NCBI RefSeq assembly: GCF_004833285.1 | Contig: NZ_STFG01000022.1 | Span: 1 to 53,380 of the forward strand | Direction of reading: 5' to 3' | From: Lampropedia puyangensis | Lineage (GTDB): Bacteria; Pseudomonadota; Gammaproteobacteria; Burkholderiales; Burkholderiaceae_C | DNA: 53,380 nucleotides | Translations under genes and position numbers: made by a program | The notes under the pieces: model-generated | Told to the model about the DNA's origin: nothing | The model's database searches: none | The model's input: only the letters and a program-made list of their open reading frames with translations | Part shown: positions 3,491 to 16,351 of the stretch, in pieces | Position numbering within the stretch: position 1 is the stretch's first letter | How the letters are laid out: every line of letters begins with the position of its first letter

Positions 3491-3997
3491 TCAGATCAAG
3501 GGCGGCGCAATGGTGGGGGGCTCTTGGTTGGTAGACGCTGTTTTTTCGGCATCGTTGTTGCGCACCACTAAAACCGGCACCTGTACAGAACCCAGAACAC
3601 GGTCTGTGGTGCTGCCAAGAAGAAATTTCTCTAAACCAGAGCGGCCATGCGAGGCCATGATGATCAGAGAAATACCACGCTCCTGCACCGCCTGTGAGAT
3701 GGTGTTTTGCACAATGGAGCCTTCAAGCGACAAGGTCTCAACCTGCAAGTTGTCTGCCTCTAAAAGACTGCGGGCTTTTTGCAGGGCCTGTTCAGCTTGC
3801 TCGCTGGATTCAGCCACGTACTGGGCTTGTCCGTAAGCCAAGTCGGTACCAATGCCGGTGAACGGGTAAGGGTCAACGACATACAGCACCAGCACTGAAC
3901 TGCCGAATGCCTTGCCAATGGCACGTGCATGGTCGATCGCGCAAAAAGAAGTGTCGGTCCCGTCAATGGGCACCATGATATGGGAGTAGTTGGGCAT
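3491..3997 (-). CDS. Universal stress protein, UspA family
   Basis: A 168-residue single Usp domain. The N-terminal strand HIMVPIDGTDTS contains the conserved Asp of the nucleotide site. Near the C-terminus, ASHG followed by nine residues and then GST matches the ATP-binding loop of the MJ0577-type subgroup, with Ala in place of the first Gly, a frequent variant. ATP-binding Usps help cells survive starvation and stress, but the specific role is unknown. AGGAGG at 4004-4009 fixes the ATG at 3997. It lies 125 bp downstream of the XdhC-TusA gene on the same strand and probably has its own promoter in that gap. The last ~20 residues are Pro/Thr-rich and variable. Confidence 0.92.
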   Translation of the reverse strand: MPNYSHIMVPIDGTDTSFCAIDHARAIGKAFGSSVLVLYVVDPYPFTGIGTDLAYGQAQYVAESSEQAEQALQKARSLLEADNLQVETLSLEGSIVQNTISQAVQERGISLIIMASHGRSGLEKFLLGSTTDRVLGSVQVPVLVVRNNDAEKTASTNQEPPTIAPPLI

Positions 3998-4122
3998 CGC
4001 TGAACCTCCTGTCAGTGGGTTGAGATGAATGCTGTCCAAGCACCACGGCTCAATAGTAGCGCGATTTTGCTGCTGTGTGGACGACGATATCCATCAAGAC
4101 CAGTTGCACGTCTCAATATCGT

Positions 4123-5481
4123 TTATGCCGCAGGTTCAGTCTGGTTGCTGTGTGGTGGTGCGCAGGCAGGGCGTTGTGTGCGTTTGCGCAGTACAAAGTA
4201 GTAGCGGCCTGCTTGCAAACCGTGCTCTACCAAGGTATGTCCACTTTGCTGTGCATAACGGGGAAAATCTACGGCAGAGGCGGGGTCTGACGTTTCAACG
4301 CGCAGCAATTGCCCTGCGCTCAAGGTTTGCAGGGCTTGCCTGGCTTTCAAGATGGGAATGGGGCACTCGTCTGAGAAGGCATCCACAACCGCTGCCACTG
4401 CGGTCACTGTTGGTGCGCTGATAGGTGGTTGTACTGCTTTACTGCGCTGGGAGGCAACAATGGCGTGCTGCGGCATGGGAGCCTTGCGCACAACGTCGCA
4501 ATGCCCAGCGGTCTGGGCCGTGTTGGTGTGATGACGCACAGCTAGCACCTGGGCCATGATGCTGACGGCTATTTCAGGCGGGGTTTTGCTGCCAATAGCG
4601 AGGCCGGCAGGGCCATGCAGGCGGGCGATGGCATTTGGCGAGAGACCACCAAATGCCGCCAGGCGGGCACGCCGCTTGGCGGCGTTGGTGCTGGAGCCGA
4701 TAGCGCCTACATAAAACGCTTGGCTTTGCAGGGCTTCGATCAATGCCACGTCATCGAGTTTGGGGTCGTGCGAGAGGGTGATCACGCAACTGCGTGCGTC
4801 GGGCGCGAAAGCGTGCACGGCATCGTCGGGCATGGCACCCGTGGTGTGTATGTCCTGCGCGGATAAACGGGCCTGCATGCCGCTGCGCGGATCGCAGACA
4901 GTGACCTGGAAACCATTGAATTGCGCCATGGCGGCCAAATAGGTGGCAATATCGCCAGCCCCAATCAGCAGCATGCGCCAGGCGGGGCCCAACGTGCACT
5001 GCATGCTGTGGGCATCGCAGTGCAGTGCAATGGCTGTGCTGGCGGTGGCGCAGTGCACAGCGCCGGTATGCAGATCCACTCGCTTGTGCATCAATCCCCC
5101 GGCGGCGATGGCTTCTACCAACGTGCGCAGTACGTGCGCATCAGGGTTGAATTCCAGCAGCAATTCGAGTGTGCCGCCGCAAGGCAAGCCCAGTTGATGC
5201 GCTTCCTCGGAGGTGATGCCGTAGTGCCGCCGCTCTGGTGCTGCGTTGCTCCATGCGGGAGCGCCGGGGGTGGGCAGCAAGCGGGTGCGTAATGCGTCTT
5301 CAATACACCCCCCGGAAACGGAGCCGACGGTGTCTCCGTGGGCATTCAATGCCATGAGTGAACCCACGGCCCTTGGCGCGGAACCCCAAGTGCGCAAGAC
5401 AGTCACCAATACGGCAGGAATGTGCTGTTCGCGCCATTGCATTGCACTGCGCAGAACGTGCAGCTCGGCATCATCAGGCAT
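4123..5481 (-). CDS. xdhC: XdhC-type Mo-cofactor maturation protein fused to a TusA/SirA-like domain
   Basis: 452 residues with two units. Residues ~15-320 are XdhC/CoxI/PucA-like: the N-terminal part holds GSVSGGCIED (Cys59) and GLPCGG (Cys101), and the C-terminal Rossmann part holds LLIGAGDIA (172-179), YVGAIGSS (257-264) and KTPPEIAVSI (299-308). XdhC proteins bind molybdenum cofactor and promote its sulfuration and insertion into xanthine-dehydrogenase-type enzymes. After a Pro/Ala-rich linker, residues ~370-435 form a TusA-like domain with DECPIPILKARQAL, whose Cys373 is in the CPxP motif that carries persulfide in TusA. Fusion of an XdhC to a sulfur carrier suggests direct sulfur delivery to Moco, which is inference. 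The start overlaps the upstream gene by 8 bp. A TTG at 5487 is an alternative, placed nearer the AAAGGA ribosome site. It is the last gene of the operon. Confidence 0.88.
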   Translation of the reverse strand: MPDDAELHVLRSAMQWREQHIPAVLVTVLRTWGSAPRAVGSLMALNAHGDTVGSVSGGCIEDALRTRLLPTPGAPAWSNAAPERRHYGITSEEAHQLGLPCGGTLELLLEFNPDAHVLRTLVEAIAAGGLMHKRVDLHTGAVHCATASTAIALHCDAHSMQCTLGPAWRMLLIGAGDIATYLAAMAQFNGFQVTVCDPRSGMQARLSAQDIHTTGAMPDDAVHAFAPDARSCVITLSHDPKLDDVALIEALQSQAFYVGAIGSSTNAAKRRARLAAFGGLSPNAIARLHGPAGLAIGSKTPPEIAVSIMAQVLAVRHHTNTAQTAGHCDVVRKAPMPQHAIVASQRSKAVQPPISAPTVTAVAAVVDAFSDECPIPILKARQALQTLSAGQLLRVETSDPASAVDFPRYAQQSGHTLVEHGLQAGRYYFVLRKRTQRPACAPPHSNQTEPAA

Positions 5482-6058
5482 GATCAAACGGTCCTTTCAA
5501 GTGGTGTTGGTGCAGGGCTTTTGCCAGCAGGTATGGGGTGTCCACGTCGATCACGATGCCACTGTCAGGCACCGGCAGCTCATACACAGCCCCAATTTCA
5601 CGGGTTTGCTGCACGATGGCCTTGGCGCCGCAATCGCCGCGCAGGTTCAGCAACGCTTGCTTGTGCTTGGCGGCAAAACCAACGGGATGGCCGCGCTGCC
5701 CTTGGTAGCACGGTACAACCACACTGGCAGGTTGCGTTTGCAATGTATGGGCCACTGCGCGCAAGGTTGCAGCTTGTACCAAAGGCATGTCGGCGGGCAG
5801 GATGAGCCAGCCCGCCGCGTTGGCTGTGCTGGCTACGCCTAGCGCGATCGAGTCGCCCATGCCGGGTGTGCCACCAGCGGGGCGCACAAGGTGCCATGCC
5901 AAACCGCTGCTGCGCACCTGGGCCAAGGTGCTCTGCAGCACGCTGGTGCCTGCAAAATCGGCATCAAGCTTGTGGCCATGCCCACCTGCAGCGCGAAAGC
6001 GCGTGCTTTGCCCGGCTGCAAGCACGAGGACGATGATCGGCTGCGGTACTGCAGGCAT
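5474..6058 (-). CDS. MocA/PucB-like molybdenum cofactor nucleotidyltransferase
   Basis: 194 residues of the MobA-like NTP-transferase fold. The nucleotide-binding signature LVLAAGQSTRF is at residues 11-21, and LPADMP, which supplies the metal-binding Asp, follows near 93-98. GHPVGF further on is typical of MocA and PucB. MocA converts Mo-molybdopterin to the cytosine dinucleotide form used by many molybdenum hydroxylases; PucB is the Bacillus purine-catabolism counterpart. CTP versus GTP preference cannot be decided here. The ATG lies 4 bp after the stop of the 2Fe-2S subunit and the 3' end overlaps the XdhC gene, so the three are probably co-translated. It would produce the cofactor for the adjacent hydroxylase. 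Confidence 0.85.
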   Translation of the reverse strand: MPAVPQPIIVLVLAAGQSTRFRAAGGHGHKLDADFAGTSVLQSTLAQVRSSGLAWHLVRPAGGTPGMGDSIALGVASTANAAGWLILPADMPLVQAATLRAVAHTLQTQPASVVVPCYQGQRGHPVGFAAKHKQALLNLRGDCGAKAIVQQTREIGAVYELPVPDSGIVIDVDTPYLLAKALHQHHLKGPFDHA

Positions 6059-6062
6059 GGCG

Positions 6063-6626
6063 CTACACGGCTGGTGGCGGCAGGGTTTCGGCAGGGAACA
6101 GTTGGGCAATGGCGCGCCGGATGCCGCCATACCCAGTGCAGCGACAGAGGTTGCCACACATCATGCTTTCTGCTTCCTGCCTGTTGGGGAGTGGCAATTG
6201 CTGATGCAGCCAGCTCAAATGCACGACCATGCCTGCGCTGCAGTAGCCGCATTGCACGCCGCCGCAGGCGTCTAGCGCTTGCATGACAGGCTGGGCCACC
6301 GGATCTTCGCGCAGCGATTCGATTGTGCGTACACGCTGGCCTTGCAGTTGGTAGGCCATCAGCAGGCAGGCATTGGCTGGCGCATCGTTGAACCAGACCA
6401 TGCAGGCGCCACAACGCCCCACCTCGCAGCCAGGTTTGGCCCCAACCAAATGCCAATGCTCGCGCAGCAAGGTTAGCAAGCGGGTGTCGGGTGTGCAGCG
6501 AGCGCTGACAGATTGGCTGTTGAGTTCCAGGCAGAGATCGATCCATTCAACAGCATCTGGCTGTGTGGGATACGGCTGCGCATGCGTTGTTTTGCAGGGC
6601 AATAAGGGCATTGAACAGTCAGACAT
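6063..6626 (-). CDS. Molybdenum hydroxylase, 2Fe-2S subunit
   Basis: 187 residues. The plant-type ferredoxin cluster is bound by Cys67, Cys72, Cys75 and Cys87 (CEVGRCGAC, then NAC). The second cluster is bound by Cys126, Cys129, Cys161 and Cys163 (CGYC and CRC). This is the small electron-transfer subunit of xanthine dehydrogenase-family enzymes (CoxS, XdhC-subunit, PucE). The N-terminal ~30 residues before the ferredoxin fold are longer than in most relatives. The ATG at 6626 overlaps the stop of the large subunit by 8 bp and has GGAG 7 nt upstream, indicating translational coupling. An in-frame ATG at 6647 lies inside the large-subunit gene and is less likely. Confidence 0.93.
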   Translation of the reverse strand: MSDCSMPLLPCKTTHAQPYPTQPDAVEWIDLCLELNSQSVSARCTPDTRLLTLLREHWHLVGAKPGCEVGRCGACMVWFNDAPANACLLMAYQLQGQRVRTIESLREDPVAQPVMQALDACGGVQCGYCSAGMVVHLSWLHQQLPLPNRQEAESMMCGNLCRCTGYGGIRRAIAQLFPAETLPPPAV

Positions 6627-8904
6627 CGGTGCGCTCCAGCATGGCAATCACATCGTTGGGCAATACGGGCAAGTGTGTGACCGGGTGGCGCAGTGCGCGG
6701 GCTAAAGCATTGGCCACAACGGGGGTCGCAAAGTTCACGCTGATCTCGCCTGCACCTCGTGGGCCAATGGGGTCGGCTTCTGGCAGGTTTTGGATGGCCA
6801 GTACGTCCATCTCCGGGGCATCGGCAAAGGTCGGTATGAAGTAAGCATCAAGATTGCGGGCGGTGTAGCGGCCTTGCACACAGGGCAGGTCTTCCTGTGT
6901 GCACATGGCCATACCCATCACCGCTCCGCCTTCCATCTGGCCGAGCATCCCTTGTGGGGACACTACAGGCCCCAGCGCTGAACACATGACCATTTTTTCT
7001 ACCTGCACCATGCCGTTCCAGCAATCTACGCGTACCTGCGCCAGCGCAGCACAAGCGCCAAACACAAAGTGGGTGTCATGGGCATTGCACTGTGGGTCTT
7101 CAGCGTGTAATTCCACAGTAATGGATGGCAGTGCATGGACAGGCAAGGCGTGGGCTAATTGGGCATAGCTGATAGCGCATGTGTGTTCACGGTACAGTCC
7201 GCCAGCGCCGAGTTTGAGTTGGGCGGGCTCGCATGCCAGTACACGAGCTGCTGCTGCGCACAATTGTTGGTGCCAGCTGGCACTGGCCTGGGCTGCCGCA
7301 CGCCATGCCAGTGTGGTGGCGCGCGAGGCTGCGACTGGCCCTGAATCTGGAGTGCAGCGCGTATCGCCCAACACGGGGCGGACGTCGGTAGCGGCGCAAT
7401 GCAAATGGCGCACACACACATTGCGCATGCTGCCAATCAGGTTTTGACCCAATTCGGTAAAGCCGCAACGCAGTTCAATCATGCCGTCGGCGGCCAAGGC
7501 CAAGACCATGCGACTGTGGCTCGGACCCCCTTTGCCAAAACCGTCGCTGCGGTGTACCAAGGCAAGGCCCACGCCATGCAGATAGCGGCCACTGCCGCTG
7601 TGCCAACGCTTTGGCCCTTGCCACAGCGGGTGCTGGCGTGCCACGTCTAACGCCCGTTGGGGGCCATCAAAGGGCACAACGGTTTGCCCTAGCGGGCCGG
7701 GATCTGTGGGGGCGGTTAGGTTCAGAGCGCGAAAGGCTGCGGCATCGATGCCGACTTTTTCCGCCAGCAAGTCCATTTGTTGTTCCAGCGCGAACTGCAC
7801 CTGCACGGCGCCAAAACCACGAAAGGCCCCAGCAACGCCGTTGTTGGTGTAGGCCAGGCGGGCATGCAGATCCACTGCGCAGTAGCGGTATGGGCCAGGT
7901 GCGTGTTCCAGGGCCGCATCCAGCACTTCGGGGCCATGGGTGGCGTAGGCGCCGGTGTCAGCCAAGATGTCGGTGTACTGAAAGCACAAACGTCCTTGCG
8001 CGTCGCAGCCAGTGCGCATGCGGATACGCATGGGGTGGCGTTTGACACCGAAATCCACCGATTGGGTGCGACTCAAGTGCATACGGACAGGGAGCTGGGT
8101 TTTCCAGGCCAGCAAGGCGGCAATGGGCTGGATGGTGAGTTCATCTTTGCCGCCATAAGAGCCGCCAACCGGCGTACCTACCGAGTGCACTTGCGTGCGT
8201 GCTAATCCGAGCATGTCGGCAATGACTTGGCATTCACGGGCAGGGTTGTGGCCCGCGAAATACAGGCGCAAGCCGCCGTGCCCATCCGGTTCGGCAACTC
8301 CCCCTTCGGTTTCCAGAAAGGCGTGCAGTTGGCGCGGTGTGGTGTAGATGTGTTCTACAACATGCGAGGCTTGTGCCTCGGCGGCACGCAGGTTGCCATG
8401 CTGGTAGTGCGTTTGGTGCAGTAAATTGCCGCCTTGGTGTACCCAGGCTTCGGGCGGCAAGTCCGTCTGCAAAGCCGCCTCAGGGTCGTCCACCAGTGGC
8501 AGCGCTTCGTAGTGCACTTCAATCGCTGCCAGCGCAGCATAGGCGGTGGCCAAATCGTCTGCTGCAACGGCAGCTACGGCATCCCCCACATACCGCACTT
8601 TGTCGCTGCACAGCACAGGGCGGTCTACTTTGCGCAAACCATACAAGGCTTCGCCAGGGATATCTGCATGGGTGAGCACGGCATGTACACCGGCGATGGC
8701 GCGTGCTTTGGTGGTATCGATGTGCACTATGCGTGCATGGGGCAAGGGACTGCCGAGGAATAAGCCACGCAGCTGGCCTGTGGCAATGCGGTCGCTCAGG
8801 TAGCCCGGCGTACCACCGAGTTTTGCACGGCTGTCAGGGCGACGATCAAGCGGTGCATCGTTGAGTCGCAGGATGTCGTGTGGCGTTGACCATGTGTGCG
8901 TCAT
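6619..8904 (-). CDS. Molybdenum hydroxylase, large Mo-pterin subunit (XdhD/PucD-like)
   Basis: 761 residues, close to the size of Bacillus PucD, and the catalytic subunit of a xanthine dehydrogenase-family enzyme. The N-terminal a/b hammerhead domain carries KVRYVGDAVAAVAA near residue 102. The Mo-binding core includes GGSYGGKDE (near 250), AGAFRGFGAVQ (near 355) and GPRGAGEIS, in which Glu720 is the catalytic base. FGKGGPSHSR is a further glycine-rich cofactor loop. Such enzymes hydroxylate a C-H next to nitrogen in a heteroaromatic ring using water. Neighbouring FAD and 2Fe-2S genes make a complete three-subunit enzyme. Xanthine or hypoxanthine is a plausible substrate given the deaminase and the Puc-like gene set, but the pocket residues do not prove it. 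GAGGG precedes the ATG. Confidence 0.92.
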   Translation of the reverse strand: MTHTWSTPHDILRLNDAPLDRRPDSRAKLGGTPGYLSDRIATGQLRGLFLGSPLPHARIVHIDTTKARAIAGVHAVLTHADIPGEALYGLRKVDRPVLCSDKVRYVGDAVAAVAADDLATAYAALAAIEVHYEALPLVDDPEAALQTDLPPEAWVHQGGNLLHQTHYQHGNLRAAEAQASHVVEHIYTTPRQLHAFLETEGGVAEPDGHGGLRLYFAGHNPARECQVIADMLGLARTQVHSVGTPVGGSYGGKDELTIQPIAALLAWKTQLPVRMHLSRTQSVDFGVKRHPMRIRMRTGCDAQGRLCFQYTDILADTGAYATHGPEVLDAALEHAPGPYRYCAVDLHARLAYTNNGVAGAFRGFGAVQVQFALEQQMDLLAEKVGIDAAAFRALNLTAPTDPGPLGQTVVPFDGPQRALDVARQHPLWQGPKRWHSGSGRYLHGVGLALVHRSDGFGKGGPSHSRMVLALAADGMIELRCGFTELGQNLIGSMRNVCVRHLHCAATDVRPVLGDTRCTPDSGPVAASRATTLAWRAAAQASASWHQQLCAAAARVLACEPAQLKLGAGGLYREHTCAISYAQLAHALPVHALPSITVELHAEDPQCNAHDTHFVFGACAALAQVRVDCWNGMVQVEKMVMCSALGPVVSPQGMLGQMEGGAVMGMAMCTQEDLPCVQGRYTARNLDAYFIPTFADAPEMDVLAIQNLPEADPIGPRGAGEISVNFATPVVANALARALRHPVTHLPVLPNDVIAMLERTDV

Positions 8905-8915
8905 GGGGTAACCCT

Positions 8916-9713
8916 CTATGGCAGACAGCCGCTGTGGCCTGCAATCAAACGGCTGGCGATGGCAGCCAGATCGACAGGCAGACTTTCAAGGCAGGCCGCG
9001 CGAATGCGGTGCAAATTGAGGGGGGCGTGTTGGCTGTCATGGCCATTCGCACACAGTGTTTCTACCGTAAACAGGCGGTGCGCTATGGTGCCAGGCGCTG
9101 CGGCAGCAACGCGCTCAAGTACGGGGCAAGCGCTGGTGCTCCAACGCATGGCGATACGGATGCGTGCGGGCGAGAATGCCGCGCGGTGGCCCACTTTTTC
9201 AAAGGCGGTGCGAGGCACAGCTAGGTCGTCATGGCGGGGCAACCAGAACGCTGTCATCAACGGGCGCACGGGCTGGGCCAGTAGGGTGTGCAGCGCCTCG
9301 CAGCTGCCGTTGGCCAGTTCGGCTTGGGCATCTAAGGCCAAAAGTACTGGGCAGGTGTCGCCTACCCCCCAGCCGAGGTTGCCGCCCAGCGTACCCACGC
9401 GGCGAATCCCCGGTGCGCCCAATTGCGCCAATGCCTCGCACAGCATGGGGGCGTGCTGGCGCACGATGGGGTGGGTGCGTACCGTTTCCAGTCTTGCCCC
9501 TGCACCGATGCGAAGCCCCGCGTTGGTCAACGCGATGCTTTGGGTTTGGGGCCAGCCCATGAGGTCAATGAAGTGCACGTCCAGCGGCGCCAGGCGTGGG
9601 TCAGCCCATTCTTGCTGTACGACAGTGCCGCCTGAGATAAAGCGGGCAGCAGGCCCCAAGTCATTGGCCCACTGCTGGGCTTGGACTGGCGTGTGGGGAG
9701 TGAGTAAACGCAC
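8916..9713 (-). CDS. Molybdenum hydroxylase, FAD-binding subunit (CoxM/PucC-like)
   Basis: 265 residues. FAD-binding motifs are ARFISGGTVVQQEW near residue 24, where the usual family text is AGGTDL, and IRRVGTLGGNLGWGVGDTC near 104-122, matching the glycine-rich TIGGN motif. The subunit would take electrons from the 2Fe-2S clusters and pass them to NAD or another acceptor. The start is a GTG at 9713 with GAGG five bases upstream; no in-frame ATG exists between it and the end of the deaminase gene 25 bp upstream. It is 11 bp from the large-subunit gene. The departures in the first FAD loop make it a somewhat divergent member. Confidence 0.85.
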   Translation of the reverse strand: MRLLTPHTPVQAQQWANDLGPAARFISGGTVVQQEWADPRLAPLDVHFIDLMGWPQTQSIALTNAGLRIGAGARLETVRTHPIVRQHAPMLCEALAQLGAPGIRRVGTLGGNLGWGVGDTCPVLLALDAQAELANGSCEALHTLLAQPVRPLMTAFWLPRHDDLAVPRTAFEKVGHRAAFSPARIRIAMRWSTSACPVLERVAAAAPGTIAHRLFTVETLCANGHDSQHAPLNLHRIRAACLESLPVDLAAIASRLIAGHSGCLP

Positions 9714-9738
9714 CGTGGCCTCGCTGCTGTGTTGCTGA

Positions 9739-10269
9739 TTAATGCTGCGCCCAAAAGCGTTGGTGCAAGGCCAGAATGTCGTCGTGAACAGCCGCCACTG
9801 GGCCGATCAACTCCACCGGTTTTTGCCCGTGTGCGAACACATAGCGCGAGTCCACACTCATGGTCGGGTTCTCGCCGTGGTTGCCGGTGCATTGCAACAG
9901 GTCGTGTTCGGTCATGCCAAACACCACTCGACCAATGTTGGCCCAGTAGGCCGTGCCTGCACACATGCAGCAAGGCTCAACGGTGGTGTAGAGGGTGCAG
10001 GCCCATAAATACTCGGCACTGTAGTTGTGTGCCGCTACCCGTGCCAGAGTGGATTCGGCATGGTTAACAGTGTCGATGTTGCATTGCTCCATCAAAACGG
10101 TTTCATGGTCCGGCGCAACCAGAATGGCACCGAACGGGTGTTTTCCCAAAGTCACAGCACGTTGCGCTACGGTGCCTGCATGACGTAAATGGCGCAGCAG
10201 TTGTTCTTCACTTGGTGGGCTGCGTTTTACCGCAGGTGCTGTGGTGGGGTGGGGTGTCTCGGCTGTCAT
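9739..10269 (-). CDS. Zinc-dependent deaminase of the cytidine/guanine deaminase fold
   Basis: 176 residues of the CDA superfamily. His70 and Glu72 (NHAES) plus Cys100 and Cys103 (EPCCMC) form the zinc site and proton shuttle. GKHPFGAILV near 42-51 and YWANIGRVVFG near 108-118 are as in GuaD/TadA-like proteins. The first ~28 residues are a variable extension. It would hydrolytically remove an amino group from a nucleobase or related heterocycle. Guanine deaminase is a fair guess because the next three genes encode a xanthine dehydrogenase-type enzyme. The zinc motif reads PCCMC rather than PCPMC, so it belongs to a side branch and another substrate is possible. The ATG is 58 bp after the permease gene. 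Confidence 0.8.
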   Translation of the reverse strand: MTAETPHPTTAPAVKRSPPSEEQLLRHLRHAGTVAQRAVTLGKHPFGAILVAPDHETVLMEQCNIDTVNHAESTLARVAAHNYSAEYLWACTLYTTVEPCCMCAGTAYWANIGRVVFGMTEHDLLQCTGNHGENPTMSVDSRYVFAHGQKPVELIGPVAAVHDDILALHQRFWAQH

Positions 10270-10327
10270 GGAATTGAGGCTAGTCGATGGGGCTCAAGCA
10301 AGGCTGGTCAAGCGTGTGGATGAGGGG

Positions 10328-11194
10328 TCAATGGCCCGCGTTTTGGCTCCAGGGAAACAAACGCGCTTGCAGCCAGCGCACCAGGCCATACAAGACCAGA
10401 CTGCTCAACACCAACAAAGCCAATGCGGCAAAGGCCACGGGTACACGAAAGGATGAGGTGGAAAACAAGATCAGATAGCCCAGCCCTTTTTCTGCGGCAA
10501 CAAACTCCGCAACCACAGCGCCCACAATGGCCAGCGTGATGGACACCTTGAGCGCGGAGAAAAGGTACGGAACGGCATAGGGCATGCGAATTTGCCAGTA
10601 CTGGCGTGACGTGCTGGCACGCAGCGAGCGCGAGAGCTCCACCAATTCAGCAGGTACAGAGGCTAAACCCAATGCCGTGGAGACTACCAGCGGGAAAAAG
10701 GCGATCAGGGTGGTAATGACCACGCGTGGCAACCAGCCTGCACCCAAGGTCACCACGATGATGGGGGCGATGGCCACAATAGGTGTGGATTGGATCACCA
10801 CCAGCCACGGCATGATGATGCGTGAGAGCAATGGAGAACGTGTGATGGAAATGGCCAACGGCAGCGCCAGGGCAATCGCAACCAGGTAGCCAGCCAGTGC
10901 CACTTGCAACGTGGCGGCGGCATGTTCAAACCAGCGCGCCGGGCCAAGCCCGATGGCAGCCGAAACAATGGCACTGGGTGCAGGCAAGATGTATTCGGGC
11001 ACTTGTGCGAATTGGCAAATCAATTGCCATGCGATCAGCACAACGATAAAAACCAAGGCCGAAGCGTAACGGCTGGCTAAAGCACGCAAACGCGAGGGCA
11101 GTGTTTGTGCGGCATTGTCTGCAGGTTCAGAGGCATGCGTGCGCACATGGGGGCTTGGCGCGGCGGTATGGGGGCTGCTGGTTGAGGTGGTCAT
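10328..11194 (-). CDS. ABC transporter permease (SsuC/TauC/ThiX family)
   Basis: 288 residues with about six membrane segments in the second two-thirds, after a ~50-residue Ser/Thr/Ala-rich cytoplasmic head. The permease loop that contacts the ATPase is visible as AVPYLFSALKVSITLAIVGA. Homologues carry sulfonates, taurine, nitrate, thiamine precursors or aromatic acids. I take the ATG at 11194, 8 bp after the ATPase stop; an in-frame TTG at 11206 would overlap that stop by 4 bp. It belongs to the importer encoded by the two upstream genes. Confidence 0.9.
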   Translation of the reverse strand: MTTSTSSPHTAAPSPHVRTHASEPADNAAQTLPSRLRALASRYASALVFIVVLIAWQLICQFAQVPEYILPAPSAIVSAAIGLGPARWFEHAAATLQVALAGYLVAIALALPLAISITRSPLLSRIIMPWLVVIQSTPIVAIAPIIVVTLGAGWLPRVVITTLIAFFPLVVSTALGLASVPAELVELSRSLRASTSRQYWQIRMPYAVPYLFSALKVSITLAIVGAVVAEFVAAEKGLGYLILFSTSSFRVPVAFAALALLVLSSLVLYGLVRWLQARLFPWSQNAGH

Positions 11195-11202
11195 AAGCGG
11201 GC

Positions 11203-11988
11203 TCAAGCAGGGGTGCGGCTGAAAACTTGTACGCGAATGTCATTGGCCATTTGCGTGAAGATGGGGTCGGTCAGGGTTGCCATGTTGCGCGGGCGGGGCA
11301 GCGGCACATCGATGATGTCGTCGACTTTGCCCGGGCGTGCGCTCATAACGACAATGCGGTCTGACAGCAACAGTGCTTCTTGAATCGAGTGGGTCACGAA
11401 AACGACGGTTTTGGGCCGTTCGTTCCAAATGCGCAGCAGCTCGAAACTCATTTCATCGCGTGTCAACGCGTCAAGGGCAGAGAAGGGCTCATCCATCAGC
11501 AAAATGTCAGGATCGTGCAGCAGCGAGCGCGCAATCGAGACGCGTTGCTGCATGCCGCCTGAGAGTTCGCCTGGACGCTTGTGGCCGAAGTCGGCCAGGC
11601 CAATCATTTCCAGCAGTTCGCGGGCGCGGGCATGCTCGGCATCGGTCACGCGGCCGTATTTGTGCTTCATCGGAAAGGTGATGTTGTCAAGCACCGACAG
11701 CCAGGGAAGCAAGGTTGGTTTTTGGAACACCATGCCGATTTCGTCGCGTGGCTCTGTCACGGGCATGCCGAAAATACGCACTTGGCCAGAGGTGGGTTGC
11801 AGCAAGCCCGAAATCAAACGCAAGATGGTGGATTTGCCGCAGCCAGAGGGGCCGATGAGGGAGACAAACTCATTCTTGCGCAAATGCAGGTCAACCCCTT
11901 GAAGGGCCACAATGCGGCCTCCGTCGCTGGCACCAAACACTTGGCCAACGGCATCAAGATCAATCACATGTTCCATGGCGAAGCCCAT
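11203..11988 (-). CDS. ABC transporter ATP-binding protein (SsuB/TauB family)
   Basis: 261 residues from the ATG at 11988. Walker A GPSGCGKST is at residues 46-54, signature LSGGMQQR at 142-149 and Walker B ILLMDEP at 162-168, with a switch His in VTHSIQEA. All motifs are intact, so it should energise the neighbouring permease. The start is uncertain. The open frame runs back to a TTG overlapping the stop of the binding-protein gene, and an ATG four codons further in (11976) is also possible. The chosen ATG has AAAGG about 8 nt upstream and gives a family-typical N-terminus. Confidence 0.92.
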   Translation of the reverse strand: MGFAMEHVIDLDAVGQVFGASDGGRIVALQGVDLHLRKNEFVSLIGPSGCGKSTILRLISGLLQPTSGQVRIFGMPVTEPRDEIGMVFQKPTLLPWLSVLDNITFPMKHKYGRVTDAEHARARELLEMIGLADFGHKRPGELSGGMQQRVSIARSLLHDPDILLMDEPFSALDALTRDEMSFELLRIWNERPKTVVFVTHSIQEALLLSDRIVVMSARPGKVDDIIDVPLPRPRNMATLTDPIFTQMANDIRVQVFSRTPA

Positions 11989-12062
11989 TCTCAGGCCTTT
12001 GTAAAAGGGGTGGTCAAACAGTGTGGTTGGTGGATTTTGTTTCTCCACCAACGCCGTTTCAA

Positions 12063-13055
12063 TCAAGGCTTGAGAAAGCTGCGGTCAACCAGTTGTTCAG
12101 GTTGCACTTTGTCTGCAGCGTAGTCCATCGATTGCGATACCCAGCCCCATGTGGCTTGCAGCAAGGCGGGGTCAAATGTGCCGAAACCGAACTTCTCGCT
12201 GACTTCGTTTTTCAACAAAGGAATGGAGGATTCAAATTCCGCTTGAACCACAGCAGCATTGGCTTCGGGGACATTGGCCTGCAAGTCCTTGGCCGCTTGC
12301 GCTGGGTTGGCGATCGCAAAGTTCACCGACTTCACCAGTGCGCGCATATAGCGTTGCAGCACTTCTGGCCTGTCTTTGATGAGCTTGTCGCTGGCCATGG
12401 CAGACCAGCCGTAGCCATCAAGGCCAAATTGGGTCCACGGCAGAATGGCCAGTTCTTGTTTGGCTTGGCCCAGCACATCCACAAAGGCGGGCCCCACCGT
12501 GACCCAGTTGATGGTGGCGTCTACACGCCCTTGTGCCAGCATGGGGGCCATGGTGGAGGGGTCTGTCTTGATGACGCGGATTTTGCTGACATCCACCCCA
12601 TTTTTCTTCAGCACCACAGGCCACAGCGCGTTGGACGATGAAAACGTGGGCATCGCGACGGTTTTGCCTTCCATGTCTTTGAGCGATTGGATGCTGCTGC
12701 TGGCGCGGGTGAACAAGGCATCGGGTTGTTTGGAGTACAACGACATCACTGCCTTGACAGGCACATCGGCTTCGGCCGCCGCCATCATCAAGGCGGAGAG
12801 GCCAGCAAAGCCGACATCTGCAGTGCCTGTAGCAATTTTGGTGACCGCATCAGAGGAGCCGCGACCGGTCAAGACCGTCACTTCCAAGCCCTCTTCTTTG
12901 AAAAAGCCTTGTTCTATGCCCGCGTATACGAAGGCTTTGTCGCCACCGGGCAACCAGTCCAGCTGGACGGTGAGTTTGTCTGCAGCATGGGCTGCTGTAC
13001 CGAGCAAGCTGGCAGTGGCCAGAGTCAAGGCGGTCAACAAAGGGCGCAATGTCAT
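12063..13055 (-). CDS. ABC transporter substrate-binding protein (NMT1/SsuA-like)
   Basis: 330 residues. A signal peptide of about 24 residues ends at AAHAA. The mature protein starts KLTVQLDWLPGGDKAFVYAG, typical of NMT1/THI5-like binding proteins, with TGTADVGFAG near 75-84. This family binds sulfonates, taurine, nitrate, pyrimidine (HMP) precursors and aromatic compounds. The operon context suggests a nitrogen heterocycle, by inference only. The ATG at 13055 follows GGAG by 7 nt and begins the signal peptide; the frame extends further upstream across the intergenic region and into the hydrolase gene without homologous sequence. Confidence 0.9.
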   Translation of the reverse strand: MTLRPLLTALTLATASLLGTAAHAADKLTVQLDWLPGGDKAFVYAGIEQGFFKEEGLEVTVLTGRGSSDAVTKIATGTADVGFAGLSALMMAAAEADVPVKAVMSLYSKQPDALFTRASSSIQSLKDMEGKTVAMPTFSSSNALWPVVLKKNGVDVSKIRVIKTDPSTMAPMLAQGRVDATINWVTVGPAFVDVLGQAKQELAILPWTQFGLDGYGWSAMASDKLIKDRPEVLQRYMRALVKSVNFAIANPAQAAKDLQANVPEANAAVVQAEFESSIPLLKNEVSEKFGFGTFDPALLQATWGWVSQSMDYAADKVQPEQLVDRSFLKP

Positions 13056-13096
13056 GGGAATCTCCGAGGGGTAAAACAAGCCAGAAGTGCTGGCCA

Positions 13097-13972
13097 TCAT
13101 GGTTGGTAAGCCGTCTCTTGCGCTGCGCAAGCTTGTGCTGATGAGAGGGATACAGCAAAGTCCGCGCCAGTTTGTGTTGGAGCGATGAAATGGCGCTGCT
13201 CCAAGTGCAGCAGCAGTTGTTGTGTCAACAGCGCAGGGCATGCCAGTTGTGGCACATGGCCGCAATCGAGGCTCAAGCGACTGGCGCCTGGCGAGAGCGT
13301 TTGCATATGGCGCTGCAAGGCCAGCAAAATGGAGCGATCGCGCAGGCACTCCACATAAATGCGTGGCACTGTGCCAAAGCACTCGGGCGTCAAATGGTTG
13401 CGCATGGCACGGCCCGATTCGGGTTGCCATACGAAATGGCGAGCCACTTGCCTGGCGTGTTCAGGCTCGCAATCGTGTAAGAAAAAATGCTGCGCCACGG
13501 CCTCGGGTACGCTGCTGGCGTGGCCACTTCTGTCCCATTGCAAATGCGGGCCAATGCCTTCGTAAGCCCATTGTGGGTGGGCCTGTTGGCATGCGTCGAT
13601 GGCATCGCCAAGGCTCCAGCCATGTGGCAACATCATTCCTGCCAAATACACCAGTGCAGCAACAGCATGCGGGCGTTCTTGGGCGACTTGTGATGCGGTC
13701 ATACCGCCGCCACTGTGGCCCACCACAACGGCTGGGCCATCCAGACTGTCGAGCACGCGCAGCACATGTGCGGTGTAGTCTTGCAAGTGCGGCTGCACTT
13801 GGGTTGGCCAACTCAACGTGGCGGGTACGCCATTGCCAGGCAGATCCACCGCATGCACATTCCAGCCTGCGGCTTGCAAATGCGGCACCCAGGCCTGAAA
13901 GGCCCAGCTGCCCTGCCAAGCACCGTGGATGAGGACGATGTGGCTGACCTTGTTGAACGTGTTGTTGGGCAT
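13097..13972 (-). CDS. Alpha/beta hydrolase, MES/EstC-like
   Basis: 291 residues. The oxyanion segment VLIHGAWQGSWAFQAW is at residues 13-28 and the nucleophile elbow GHSGGG contains Ser87. Asp212 (LRDRS) and His239 (DCGHVPQLACP) complete the catalytic triad. The spacing is that of small esterases related to plant methylesterases and bacterial EstC. It could hydrolyse an ester, an amide or a ring-opened product in the pathway encoded by the operon. The ATG lies 10 bp after the oxygenase stop, with AGAGG directly upstream. An upstream in-frame start inside the oxygenase gene would add unmatched residues. The last ~25 residues are Ala/Gln-rich and probably disordered. Confidence 0.85.
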   Translation of the reverse strand: MPNNTFNKVSHIVLIHGAWQGSWAFQAWVPHLQAAGWNVHAVDLPGNGVPATLSWPTQVQPHLQDYTAHVLRVLDSLDGPAVVVGHSGGGMTASQVAQERPHAVAALVYLAGMMLPHGWSLGDAIDACQQAHPQWAYEGIGPHLQWDRSGHASSVPEAVAQHFFLHDCEPEHARQVARHFVWQPESGRAMRNHLTPECFGTVPRIYVECLRDRSILLALQRHMQTLSPGASRLSLDCGHVPQLACPALLTQQLLLHLEQRHFIAPTQTGADFAVSLSSAQACAAQETAYQP

Positions 13973-13982
13973 ACCTCTGGCC

Positions 13983-14933
13983 TTATCCGTAGGTGCGTTG
14001 GTAGCAGGCGATTTGGTGCTGCTCAACCGTGACGGTGGGGTACTTGGGCTGTTGGCCTTTTGTCAGGCAGCTTGGAATGCAGCGGATTTCATGCAAAGGG
14101 TTGCCTGTGAAGAAAAACGGCACCGAATAGCGCTGCCCGCCTGAACGGTTGATGACGCGGTGCAGGGTGGAGACATAGTGGTCATTCGTCCAGCGGGCCA
14201 TCAAGTCGCCGATGTTGACCACATAGGCGCCATCCACGGGAGGCGCATCCATCCAGTTGTTGTGCAAGGTATCCCATACCTGCAAGCCACCGGCTTGGTC
14301 TTGCAGCAACAAAGTCAAACCACCAAAGTCGGTATGCGCGCCACAGCCCTGTTCACGTTCGGCAGGCTGTACTGGCTGAGGTGGGTAGTGCAGCAGGCGC
14401 AAAGTGGCAGCGGCTTCGTGCAGATACGCATCAAAGTAATCGTCTTCGACCCCTAAGGAAAGGCCAAAAGCGCGTATTAGGCGTGCGCCTAACGCATAAG
14501 CTTGCGTGTAATACGCCTGCATGACGGTGCGAAACTGCGTTGGCTGTTCTGGCCATTGGTTAGGGCCCGTATTGAACCGTTTGGCCAATACGCGGGGATC
14601 GTCTGCCGGTACTTCCGCTCCGATGTAGAAGCTCTCTTTCAGATCAGGGGCAGCCCCAGCTTCCAGCGTTTGTGCGCGCAGTGGTTCGTAGCCTCGATTG
14701 CACATTGAATGGCGTTTGTCGAGTGCGTTTTTGGCGGCATCCTCTTGGGAAAAGAAAGCGCGGCTGCAAGCAAAAACCGATTCAATCAAGGCCGAATCCA
14801 CCCCATGGTTGACCACATAGAAGAAGCCGCGTTCCTGACAGGCTTGCCCCAGTTGCTGGGCAACGCCTCTTTGCGCTGCGACGTCCCCGGTGCGCAAAGG
14901 GCCAATGTCGATGATGGGGAGTGCGGCAGACAT
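13983..14933 (-). CDS. 2-oxoglutarate/Fe(II) oxygenase, isopenicillin N synthase family
   Basis: 316 residues. The N-terminal DIOX_N domain opens with LPIIDIGPL and has RGFFYVVNHGV near 35-45. The catalytic barrel holds the iron ligands His200, Asp202 (GAHTDFGG) and His258 (STLHRV), and the 2OG-binding RxS pair Arg268/Ser270 (QRYSVPFFF). All catalytic residues are present. Bacterial members oxidise small molecules, but most are uncharacterised. It is the first gene after the LysR regulator and the head of the molybdenum hydroxylase operon, so it probably performs a hydroxylation, demethylation or ring-oxidation step on the imported substrate. Confidence 0.9.
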   Translation of the reverse strand: MSAALPIIDIGPLRTGDVAAQRGVAQQLGQACQERGFFYVVNHGVDSALIESVFACSRAFFSQEDAAKNALDKRHSMCNRGYEPLRAQTLEAGAAPDLKESFYIGAEVPADDPRVLAKRFNTGPNQWPEQPTQFRTVMQAYYTQAYALGARLIRAFGLSLGVEDDYFDAYLHEAAATLRLLHYPPQPVQPAEREQGCGAHTDFGGLTLLLQDQAGGLQVWDTLHNNWMDAPPVDGAYVVNIGDLMARWTNDHYVSTLHRVINRSGGQRYSVPFFFTGNPLHEIRCIPSCLTKGQQPKYPTVTVEQHQIACYQRTYG

Positions 14934-15141
14934 AACGGAAAACCTTGTATGAGTGGGCTAAGGGGAGGTGATGGGGTGTGAGAGCGGGGCGTCAATGACC
15001 GTGGTGAAGGCAGTGTAGAAAGGCGTTGGTGCATTGAATAGCATCGTTTTTCGAACTGGGTGATGCCAAAAATCGCTCACCAAAATGGATGAACCGTATC
15101 GGTGCATAGGCACTGGCATGCCTCTTTTTGGTGCGTTTTTT
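14934..15141. promoter_or_regulatory. Probable operon control region between LysR gene and oxygenase
   Basis: This 208-bp gap precedes the first gene of the catabolic operon. GCATC (15041-15045) and GATGC (15062-15066) form a spaced inverted repeat that could be a regulator site, but the arms are short. No clear -35/-10 pair was identified. Placement of the operon promoter here is inferred from gene layout. Confidence 0.35.
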
Positions 15142-16068
15142 TTAAAGGGTGGAGGAGCCCGCCACAGGAGGGTAGGTTTCGATGGCGCGCAAGGTGATTT
15201 GCAGGAATGCATCGACCGCAGGTGGCAGCGAGCGGCCTGCACGCACATACACCCCCAGCTCCGAAAAGGTCGCTTGTGGTGCATCCAGTGGAATATGGGC
15301 CAAAGCGCCTTCCGCGATTTCTGTTTCGATTCCAATACGGCTTTGGAAGAAAATCCCTACGCCTTGTGAGGCCAAACGCTTGCCCAACTCCACAGAGGAG
15401 ACCTCCATGCACACATGCATGCGGCCTTTGTAGTGTTGAATAGCTGGTTGCAGCAGGGCCCAGATGGACAGTGCCTGCGTAGGCAAAATCAGTGGATACT
15501 GGGCGCAGTCTGCAAAGCTCACGCGTTGCGATGGTGCCAGCGGATGCCCGCCGGGGACAACGGCCCCCAATCCAAAATGCCGAACCGCGCATTGGCGGAT
15601 ATGGTCGTGGCGTTGAATGGCAAAGCCAATGCCCACATCGGCATCCCCTGCGATCAAGGCGCGCACGACTTCGTCAGATCCGCAGGTGAGCACGCGCAAT
15701 GTAATACCTGGGTAGCGCTGGCGCATTTGGGCAAGTACGGCGGGCAAAATGTCTGCATTCAGCCCTTCAACCGCAGCGATGGCGATGGCGCCACGGTGCA
15801 CGCCCCGTAGCAACTCCAGCTCAGATAGCAAGCGATTCTGGTCTTGCAGCACGGTCAGCACATGGCGTGAGAAAGCTTCTCCTGCCACGGTCAATTGCAA
15901 GCCTGTGGGCAGACGGTCGAACAAGGCGGCGTTGAGCTCGCCTTCAAGCTGCAAAAGCTGCCGGTTCACTGCCGAAGACGATACATGCAAGCGTCGCGCA
16001 GCCTCGCGAATGGAGCCGCAGCGGCGAATCATGTCGAAGTAAACAATAGAGCGGGAATGGATGTGCAT
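15142..16068 (-). CDS. LysR-family transcriptional regulator
   Basis: 308 residues. The winged helix-turn-helix at ~15-40 reads GSIREAARRLHVSSSAVNRQ, followed by the wing LEGELNAALFDRL. The effector-binding domain starts near residue 90 with GAIAIAAVEG and contains the usual DVGIGF and GVGIFF segments. It is on the same strand and directly upstream of the operon rather than divergent from it, which is less usual for LysR genes. It is the most likely substrate-responsive activator of the operon. The ATG opens with the short MHIHSRSIVYF typical of this subgroup. Confidence 0.92.
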   Translation of the reverse strand: MHIHSRSIVYFDMIRRCGSIREAARRLHVSSSAVNRQLLQLEGELNAALFDRLPTGLQLTVAGEAFSRHVLTVLQDQNRLLSELELLRGVHRGAIAIAAVEGLNADILPAVLAQMRQRYPGITLRVLTCGSDEVVRALIAGDADVGIGFAIQRHDHIRQCAVRHFGLGAVVPGGHPLAPSQRVSFADCAQYPLILPTQALSIWALLQPAIQHYKGRMHVCMEVSSVELGKRLASQGVGIFFQSRIGIETEIAEGALAHIPLDAPQATFSELGVYVRAGRSLPPAVDAFLQITLRAIETYPPVAGSSTL

Positions 16069-16324
16069 GCCCTTTGTAGAGCATTGACTGTGCCAAGTGC
16101 ATTCGCACGCTGATGCATTGCGGTGGCGCAGCCATCCTGCTGCAGGAACTTGTGTCCAGGAGGTGAGGTCGTGACAACGTTTTACGCGTTTGTATCTTAG
16201 AGCGGCGCATTAGAAACTGGCTTGTGCCCACTCAAAGGTGAATGGGTATGAAGCTTATTGGTTGCTTTCCAGTGCGTTGAAATAGCCTCAGGTTGAGTCG
16301 CGAGGCGCAACATATTCACATTAA

Positions 16325-16341
16325 AATAACATTTTGTTATT
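16325..16341. promoter_or_regulatory. Inverted repeat upstream of the surface-protein gene
   Basis: AATAAC and GTTATT with a 5-bp ATTTT spacer form a perfect palindrome 11 bp before the ATG. The surroundings (16300-16340) are AT-rich, as in a promoter or operator. The rest of the 283-bp gap to the LysR gene shows nothing else clear. Confidence 0.3.
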
Positions 16342-16351
16342 GGGGTTACCA

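Follow-up and report, generated by a model that had tools for sequence, protein, structure and literature searches.

A LysR-linked gene block of Lampropedia puyangensis as a candidate peripheral purine-catabolic operon

The twelve minus-strand genes at 4123-16068 of a 53,380-nucleotide stretch of Lampropedia puyangensis DNA (contig NZ_STFG01000022.1; the whole stretch is called the window) comprise a LysR gene and eleven more, which encode an ABC importer, a 2-oxoglutarate (2OG)-Fe(II) oxygenase, an alpha/beta hydrolase, a deaminase and a three-subunit molybdenum (Mo) hydroxylase with two maturation proteins. We propose, with evenly balanced confidence, that this block is a LysR-controlled peripheral purine-catabolic operon, in which the substrate would be stripped of a substituent, deaminated to xanthine and oxidised to urate. 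A substrate of the purine class is likely and fairly well supported. Removal of the substituent by the oxygenase/hydrolase pair is a more tentative assignment, to which we give slightly less than even confidence, and any single named substrate, such as 7-methylguanine, is unlikely to be the right one. The gene content, the conserved gene order, the homology to purine loci and a predicted urate-to-allantoin pathway on another contig of the genome (C12) are read directly from the sequence.

Results

Layout of the gene block

Gene calls and domain searches confirmed the eleven same-strand genes behind a LysR gene that had been described in an earlier note on this DNA. In the order of transcription, the block reads as follows.

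15142..16068, minus strand: LysR-type regulator, first gene, 308 amino acids (aa); PF03466/PF00126
13983..14933, minus strand: 2OG-Fe(II) oxygenase, isopenicillin N synthase (IPNS)-like, 316 aa; PF14226 and PF03171
13097..14026, minus strand: alpha/beta hydrolase, 309 aa in the longest frame; PF12697
12063..13055, minus strand: NMT1/THI5-like solute-binding protein (SBP), 330 aa from the ATG at 13055; PF09084
11203..12066, minus strand: ABC transporter ATPase, identified by blast to syntenic ATPases
10328..11206, minus strand: ABC transporter permease, syntenic, with NCBIfam matches below cut-offs
9739..10269, minus strand: CDA-fold deaminase, guanine-deaminase-like by context, 176 aa; PF00383
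8916..9713, minus strand: flavin adenine dinucleotide (FAD) subunit of the Mo hydroxylase, PucC-like, 265 aa; PF00941
6619..8904, minus strand: molybdenum subunit of the Mo hydroxylase, PucD-like, 761 aa; PF02738, PF20256, PF01315
6063..6647, minus strand: [2Fe-2S] subunit of the Mo hydroxylase, PucE-like; PF01799, PF00111
5474..6157, minus strand: MobA-like nucleotidyltransferase, MocA/PucB type; PF12804
4123..5487, minus strand: XdhC family maturation factor with a C-terminal TusA domain; PF02625, PF13478, PF01206

Domains were assigned with Pfam for 10 of the 12 proteins and with NCBIfam for 10 of the 12; the identity of the ATPase comes from blast only. The small gaps and several overlaps claimed earlier also held: the widest gap within the eleven genes is 58 bp and six junctions overlap when the longest starts are taken, a rule that accounts for part of the overlaps. 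For the hydrolase, the likelier start is the ATG at 13972, 10 bp past the oxygenase stop. The LysR and oxygenase genes are separated by 208 bp. A promoter scan returned 2 matches (mean of 4.1 in shuffled sequences), and 20 terminator-like sites were counted (14.2 in shuffles).

Conservation of the block

When named genomes were scanned with an alignment of three oxygenase sequences, 14 loci emerged, 11 of which (oxygenase identity 62-76%) carry the block or part of it; at L063-L065 (35-41%) the oxygenase was the sole match. These blocks come from Lampropedia cohaerens, Corticibacter populi, Comamonas testosteroni (three records), Comamonas composti, Cupriavidus respiraculi and Pararobbsia silviterrae, and from three metagenome-assembled genomes (a Comamonas sp., Candidatus Protistobacter heckmanni and a Burkholderiaceae bacterium). 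Across 300 genomes of the order, oxygenase matches with E up to 1e-60 occurred in 22 genomes at 26 places, one of them in the window; of the other 25, 15 were fetched, from 14 genomes. Among these 15, L157 holds the complete block, where a single 1134-aa protein apparently combines the FAD and Mo subunits, and at L158 (genome G298) LysR, oxygenase and hydrolase are the only genes of the block. The core was complete, from LysR through the Fe-S subunit, at 9 of 14 places (the window, L052-L057, L062 and L157). Since this order recurs elsewhere, the arrangement is more than chance, and the neighbourhood search thus upheld the idea of one gene block, with the core order found in Lampropedia, Corticibacter, Comamonas and other Burkholderiales.

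At the 11 related loci, the LysR protein is 58-79% identical and equally placed at 10, the copy at L061 being in two pieces; it was not found at L060 (Pararobbsia), which, like L158, retains oxygenase and hydrolase. The ATPase is 77-92% identical to the syntenic ATPases, the broken L061 copy excluded. MobA was matched at one of the 11 loci and XdhC at none of them within the fetched stretches (that of L057 covers about 590 bases past the Fe-S gene), which places both proteins outside the conserved core.

At L061 (Candidatus Protistobacter heckmanni) the order is kept and the LysR, ATPase, permease, FAD and Mo genes are in pieces. The pieces resemble decay, and canonical xanthine dehydrogenase (XDH) also matches in pieces in this genome.

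Purine context of the relatives

Orthologues of the LysR-oxygenase pair were found on Pseudomonas, Acinetobacter and Moraxella plasmids (LysR 43-48%, oxygenase 51-52% identity), in stretches that contain hpxO in Pseudomonas and Acinetobacter and an NCS2 symporter gene in Moraxella. In a tree of 48 oxygenases, the operon oxygenases and those of the plasmid hpx islands formed one clade (support 100/99). On Pseudomonas putida pKF715A, 2.6 kb separate the oxygenase orthologue from an NdmC-like gene, which is followed by NdmD-like and glutathione-S-transferase genes. The NdmC-like protein matches the structures of SxtDIOX and SxtT first and then NdmA and NdmB, and the NdmD-like protein matches the NdmD ferredoxin domain at 1.7e-34. 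In the portions of PMC4408171 used here, NdmCDE takes the N7 methyl group off 7-methylxanthine, and the ndm genes of strain CBB5 are flanked by frmA/frmB. Formaldehyde-detoxification genes stand beside the oxygenase in one of three Acinetobacter islands. Together with the NdmCDE-like neighbours on pKF715A, this island makes a dealkylation reading plausible. As proof of demethylation, formaldehyde genes present in one island of three were set aside as weak.

For the deaminase, the neighbourhoods of six of 40 listed plasmid records were fetched, the top-listed record H1 not being among the six. The nearest fetched relative (70%), on an Acinetobacter plasmid, is 3.7 kb away from hpxO, and its surroundings also include allantoicase, ureidoglycolate lyase and Rieske genes. 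In four of the six, on Pandoraea, Erwinia, Pantoea and Paracoccus plasmids, deaminase relatives (45-70%) are paired with an NCS2 nucleobase symporter; the closer relatives, near hpxO or next to such a symporter, are 64-70% identical. Moreover, L043 and L044, which belong to other genera of the family, have a comparable cassette of SBP, ATPase, permease and deaminase adjoining urate genes, of which the 2-oxo-4-hydroxy-4-carboxy-5-ureidoimidazoline (OHCU) decarboxylase was recognised by family search and the others by the likeness of their starts to tested genes.

The xanthine riboswitch RF03054, behind which more distant oxygenase, SBP and deaminase homologues lie, was a further link to purines. 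Thirteen matches above the gathering score were obtained at 8 of 21 searched loci; the 21 include the operon-type loci L157 and L158, both without RF03054. At L042, L044, L050, L166, L167 and L170, the genes downstream include an oxygenase (31-43% identical to that of the operon), an SBP or a deaminase homologue; at L051 the riboswitch is followed by a Rieske-like gene, SBP, deaminase and Mo enzyme, and at L043 by a Rieske-like gene. Riboswitches of this kind also occur elsewhere in 8 of the 12 genomes that carry all or some of the block, including Lampropedia (L050). According to the parts of Yu and Breaker 2020 (PMC7373994) on which we draw, xanthine and urate are ligands of this aptamer, which stands ahead of dioxygenase/SBP/deaminase-type genes, the dioxygenases being predicted to act on purines with precise functions not established. 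This was the only paper naming both isopenicillin N synthase and guanine deaminase that we found in a literature search for such operons. Both the company of purine genes in which relatives of the LysR, oxygenase, deaminase and transporter are found and the riboswitch-linked homologues argue for a purine-type substrate.

Oxygenase, hydrolase, importer and deaminase

Residues H200, D202, H258, R268 and S270 of the oxygenase, which we take to be the ligands of iron and 2OG, are invariant across three orthologues. Beside the oxygenase homologues of L160, L161, L162, L165, L167, L168 and L170 lies a protein of 130-158 aa that appears, by eye from its start sequence, to be of VOC/glyoxalase type. 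MetE-like proteins near purine-type oxygenases in Pararobbsia (L060:11815-12936) and Moraxella (L195:2284-3426) are 40% identical to each other.

The PDB relatives of the hydrolase are a pyrethroid hydrolase, SABP2 and hydroxynitrile lyases. The Ser of a GHSGGG-type motif, an Asp and the His of CGHVPQL, all present in the nine aligned orthologues, are its putative catalytic residues. An alpha/beta hydrolase near the Moraxella oxygenase was considered as a counterpart and rejected, as it gave no match to the operon hydrolase.

SBP searches used 12063-13049 or a longer frame as query, and the PDB relatives of the protein include an N-formyl-aminomethyl-pyrimidine-binding protein and THI5. The permease matched SaoP, NtrB, TauC and SsuC in NCBIfam, all below cut-offs. 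The deaminase contains HAE and PCxxC zinc motifs and a CDA domain; solved guanine deaminases match it at 45 bits, no better than TadA, and a guanine-deaminase-like activity is predicted from its gene context.

The molybdenum hydroxylase and its maturation proteins

The earlier note held that the Mo-hydroxylase part mirrors Bacillus PucABCDE. The subunits are indeed closest to PucCDE, the best NCBIfam model for each being a Puc model; as equivalogs they fall short, with all three under the cut-offs (PucD TIGR03196, 587 of 784 bits; PucC TIGR03199, 96 of 306; PucE TIGR03198, 146 of 254). The MobA-like protein scored 88.6 bits with TIGR03310 (cut-off 186). The Mo subunit is the sole MoCoBD_1 match and the only enzyme of the xanthine oxidase family in its genome; its PDB matches include nicotinate, quinoline and aldehyde enzymes. 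Relatives of 44-46% identity occur on five Rhizobium plasmids, accompanied in R. tumorigenes by NdmC-like, glutathione-S-transferase, Rieske and amidohydrolase genes. Nine of the 12 genomes that carry all or some of the block also have a canonical XDH over cut-off; the five congeners compared have none.

In the FAD subunit (8916-9713), Pfam recognises the N-terminal FAD-binding domain alone, with no C-terminal domain.

The XdhC protein carries a TusA domain at residues 367-435 (PF01206, 59 bits) with a CPxP motif, a feature absent from the earlier note. Of 300 genomes searched in the order, 146 have an XdhC match, and among the listed stop-free matches only that of the window extends into the TusA part. 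Twenty related loci, 19 of them covering at most 1.5 kb on each side, gave no TusA match in the vicinity of XdhC. The fusion suggests TusA-type sulfur delivery to the molybdenum cofactor, with the domain as a possible built-in donor.

Urate genes and a Rieske enzyme elsewhere in the genome

The absence of uricase and allantoin genes had led the earlier note to a non-classical purine route. They are absent from the operon only, and at the genome level this view was rejected, because the urate-to-allantoin genes lie on contig C12 (L088): HpxO (639 bits, cut-off 500), 5-hydroxyisourate (HIU) hydrolase (130, cut-off 87), PuuE allantoinase (495, cut-off 425) and an OHCU decarboxylase/allantoate amidohydrolase fusion, whose decarboxylase domain scored 162 bits (cut-off 96). 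A protein of the ureidoglycolate-lyase family on contig C1 is over the Pfam cut-off and below that of NCBIfam. OHCU decarboxylase was present in every one of the 12 genomes with a complete or partial block, versus one of five congeners with only TadA-like deaminase matches (the less complete congeners G004 and G008 were excluded).

Contig C8 encodes a Rieske oxygenase (L232:5855-6922) that may provide a second route for hypoxanthine or xanthine; its identity to the Rieske enzyme encoded about 0.2 kb from hpxO on pKF715A is 60%. The C8 enzyme weakens the argument by elimination that the operon Mo enzyme is the sole xanthine oxidase of the genome. The Rieske gene is adjoined by a LysR-like gene (by eye), and close relatives of the enzyme were found in 3 of 17 other genomes searched.

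Discussion

Proposed pathway

The earlier expectation of an operon for import and oxidation of an amino-substituted N-heterocycle is supported, and within this class the context of the relatives points to purines. In our model, the NMT1-type ABC system would import a substituted amino-purine with a guanine skeleton. The 2OG-Fe oxygenase would then oxidise the substituent, in the simplest case an N-methyl group, and the alpha/beta hydrolase would complete its removal. The CDA deaminase would convert the freed guanine to xanthine, and the PucCDE-like Mo hydroxylase, with the MobA-like and XdhC-TusA proteins as its maturation factors, would oxidise the purine ring to the urate level. Urate would finally enter the HpxO, HIU hydrolase, OHCU decarboxylase and PuuE route encoded on contig C12. 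If the deaminase yields xanthine and the Mo enzyme urate, the ring is fully oxidised, which would leave the oxygenase and hydrolase to act on an attachment to the ring.

As one specific and distinctly unlikely version, the substrate could be a methylguanine, for example 7-methylguanine from RNA turnover. The 2OG enzyme would make an N-formyl intermediate and the hydrolase would free formate from it, with no free formaldehyde, before deaminase and Mo hydroxylase carry the product to urate. Were this true, the N-formyl/formate route would be an undescribed purine dealkylation, and methylguanine would be taken to urate within one operon.

Several observations weigh against the proposed purine-catabolic operon. 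First, D and A occupy, in all seven aligned operon Mo subunits and in L157, the positions at which all seven canonical XDHs have E and R, a pair that we presume, from bovine XDH, to bind the purine. E. coli XdhA likewise lacks the E/R pair, and so the D/A residues do not decide the Mo substrate; active-site residues were therefore dropped as a means of naming it. Second, the canonical XDH in nine of twelve genomes with all or some of the block means that the operon Mo enzyme may not be an XDH. Third, a xanthine riboswitch ahead of the operon was sought without success: RF03054 was not found in 3500-16600 of the window at E up to 5, nor in any of seven syntenic loci, nor in the L. puyangensis genome among 150 of 530 candidates scored. 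Fourth, formaldehyde genes are absent from the other stretches fetched (two Acinetobacter, two P. putida and one Moraxella), and a 45% deaminase relative in Sinorhizobium lies in a fetched stretch without purine neighbours. Finally, L058 lacks the deaminase and L059 lacks the hydrolase and Mo enzyme, and OHCU decarboxylase is present in 81 of 100 genomes of the family, so that its co-occurrence with the block in 12 of 12 genomes is weak support and not proof.

Alternative explanations

The same genes could form a plain guanine/hypoxanthine operon, an explanation we consider somewhat unlikely, in which the Mo enzyme is an ordinary XDH and the 2OG oxygenase a second ring hydroxylase (acting, for example, at carbon 8 of xanthine or guanine) under molybdenum shortage. 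The status of the Mo enzyme as the only xanthine-oxidase-family member of its genome, with PucD as best match, is consistent with this, as are the fetched plasmid hpx stretches, where Rieske and several 2OG oxygenase genes accompany hpxO with no annotated molybdenum XDH. In Comamonas composti, moreover, oxygenase, importer, deaminase and OHCU decarboxylase are present while the XDH match spans only 47 positions with no called gene. However, the operon would then hold two enzymes for one task, and the hydrolase would be left unexplained; canonical XDH is already available in most of the genomes with all or some of the block, and L. puyangensis itself has the Rieske enzyme of contig C8.

A route for a non-purine heterocycle, such as a pterin, a cytokinin base or a pyridine/quinoline compound, is improbable. 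It would accord with the resemblance of the NMT1-type SBP to pyrimidine binders, with the nicotinate, quinoline and aldehyde enzymes among the PDB matches of the Mo subunit and with the XDH-type pocket residues not conserved there, but the relatives of the LysR, oxygenase, deaminase and transporter lie in purine contexts, xanthine riboswitches included, and the best subunit models are PucC, PucD and PucE.

Mere adjacency of importer/deaminase, 2OG/hydrolase and Mo hydroxylase modules is about equally improbable: the oxygenase/hydrolase pair does stand alone in Pararobbsia (L060) and with LysR in G298 (L158), and C. composti has oxygenase, importer and deaminase without the Mo enzyme, but the genes overlap or almost touch and the whole core occurs at nine places in several genera.

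Relation to known systems

The proposed purine-catabolic operon is related to the purine-oxidation genes that stand behind xanthine riboswitches, with a LysR gene replacing the riboswitch; its target is probably a modified guanine. An IPNS-like dioxygenase, an NMT1/THI5-like SBP with ABC transporter and a deaminase are common to the operon and to that regulon, as far as the regulon is set out in the cited parts of PMC7373994; in contrast, the operon has a LysR gene, no riboswitch that we could find, and additionally an alpha/beta hydrolase and a PucCDE-like Mo hydroxylase. With Bacillus PucABCDE it shares separate FAD, Mo and Fe-S subunits and the nearby MobA-like and XdhC-like proteins, but its subunits are below the equivalog cut-offs, its gene company is different and its XdhC protein carries TusA.

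With the Klebsiella-type Hpx pathway, the likeness extends to HpxO, HIU hydrolase and OHCU decarboxylase in the L. puyangensis genome and, through the pKF715A enzyme and not the HpxD sequence, to a Rieske oxygenase. These Hpx-type genes lie on other contigs, whereas the operon has a 2OG oxygenase and a Mo enzyme. The demethylation by NdmABCDE of Pseudomonas putida CBB5 would yield xanthine from methylated purines, as proposed for the operon, which however would use 2OG instead of Rieske chemistry, together with a deaminase; no Rieske domain was found in the 11 operon proteins tested by Pfam or NCBIfam, the twelfth being the ABC ATPase. Thymine 7-hydroxylase (5c3p) is a nucleobase oxidase with the same 2OG-Fe fold family as the operon oxygenase, but it is not the closest solved structure (138.6 bits versus 219.3 for 9ovh).

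IPNS-like dioxygenases recur across the purine loci examined. Here, one such enzyme is encoded in a compact cluster together with an importer, a deaminase and a Mo hydroxylase, and the cluster occurs in named species (Comamonas testosteroni, Lampropedia cohaerens and Corticibacter populi). If the substrate is a methylated purine, the operon would tie methylpurines derived from RNA to the supply of nitrogen.

The opposite strand at 16334-19018, immediately upstream of the LysR gene, encodes an 894-aa cadherin-like domain protein.

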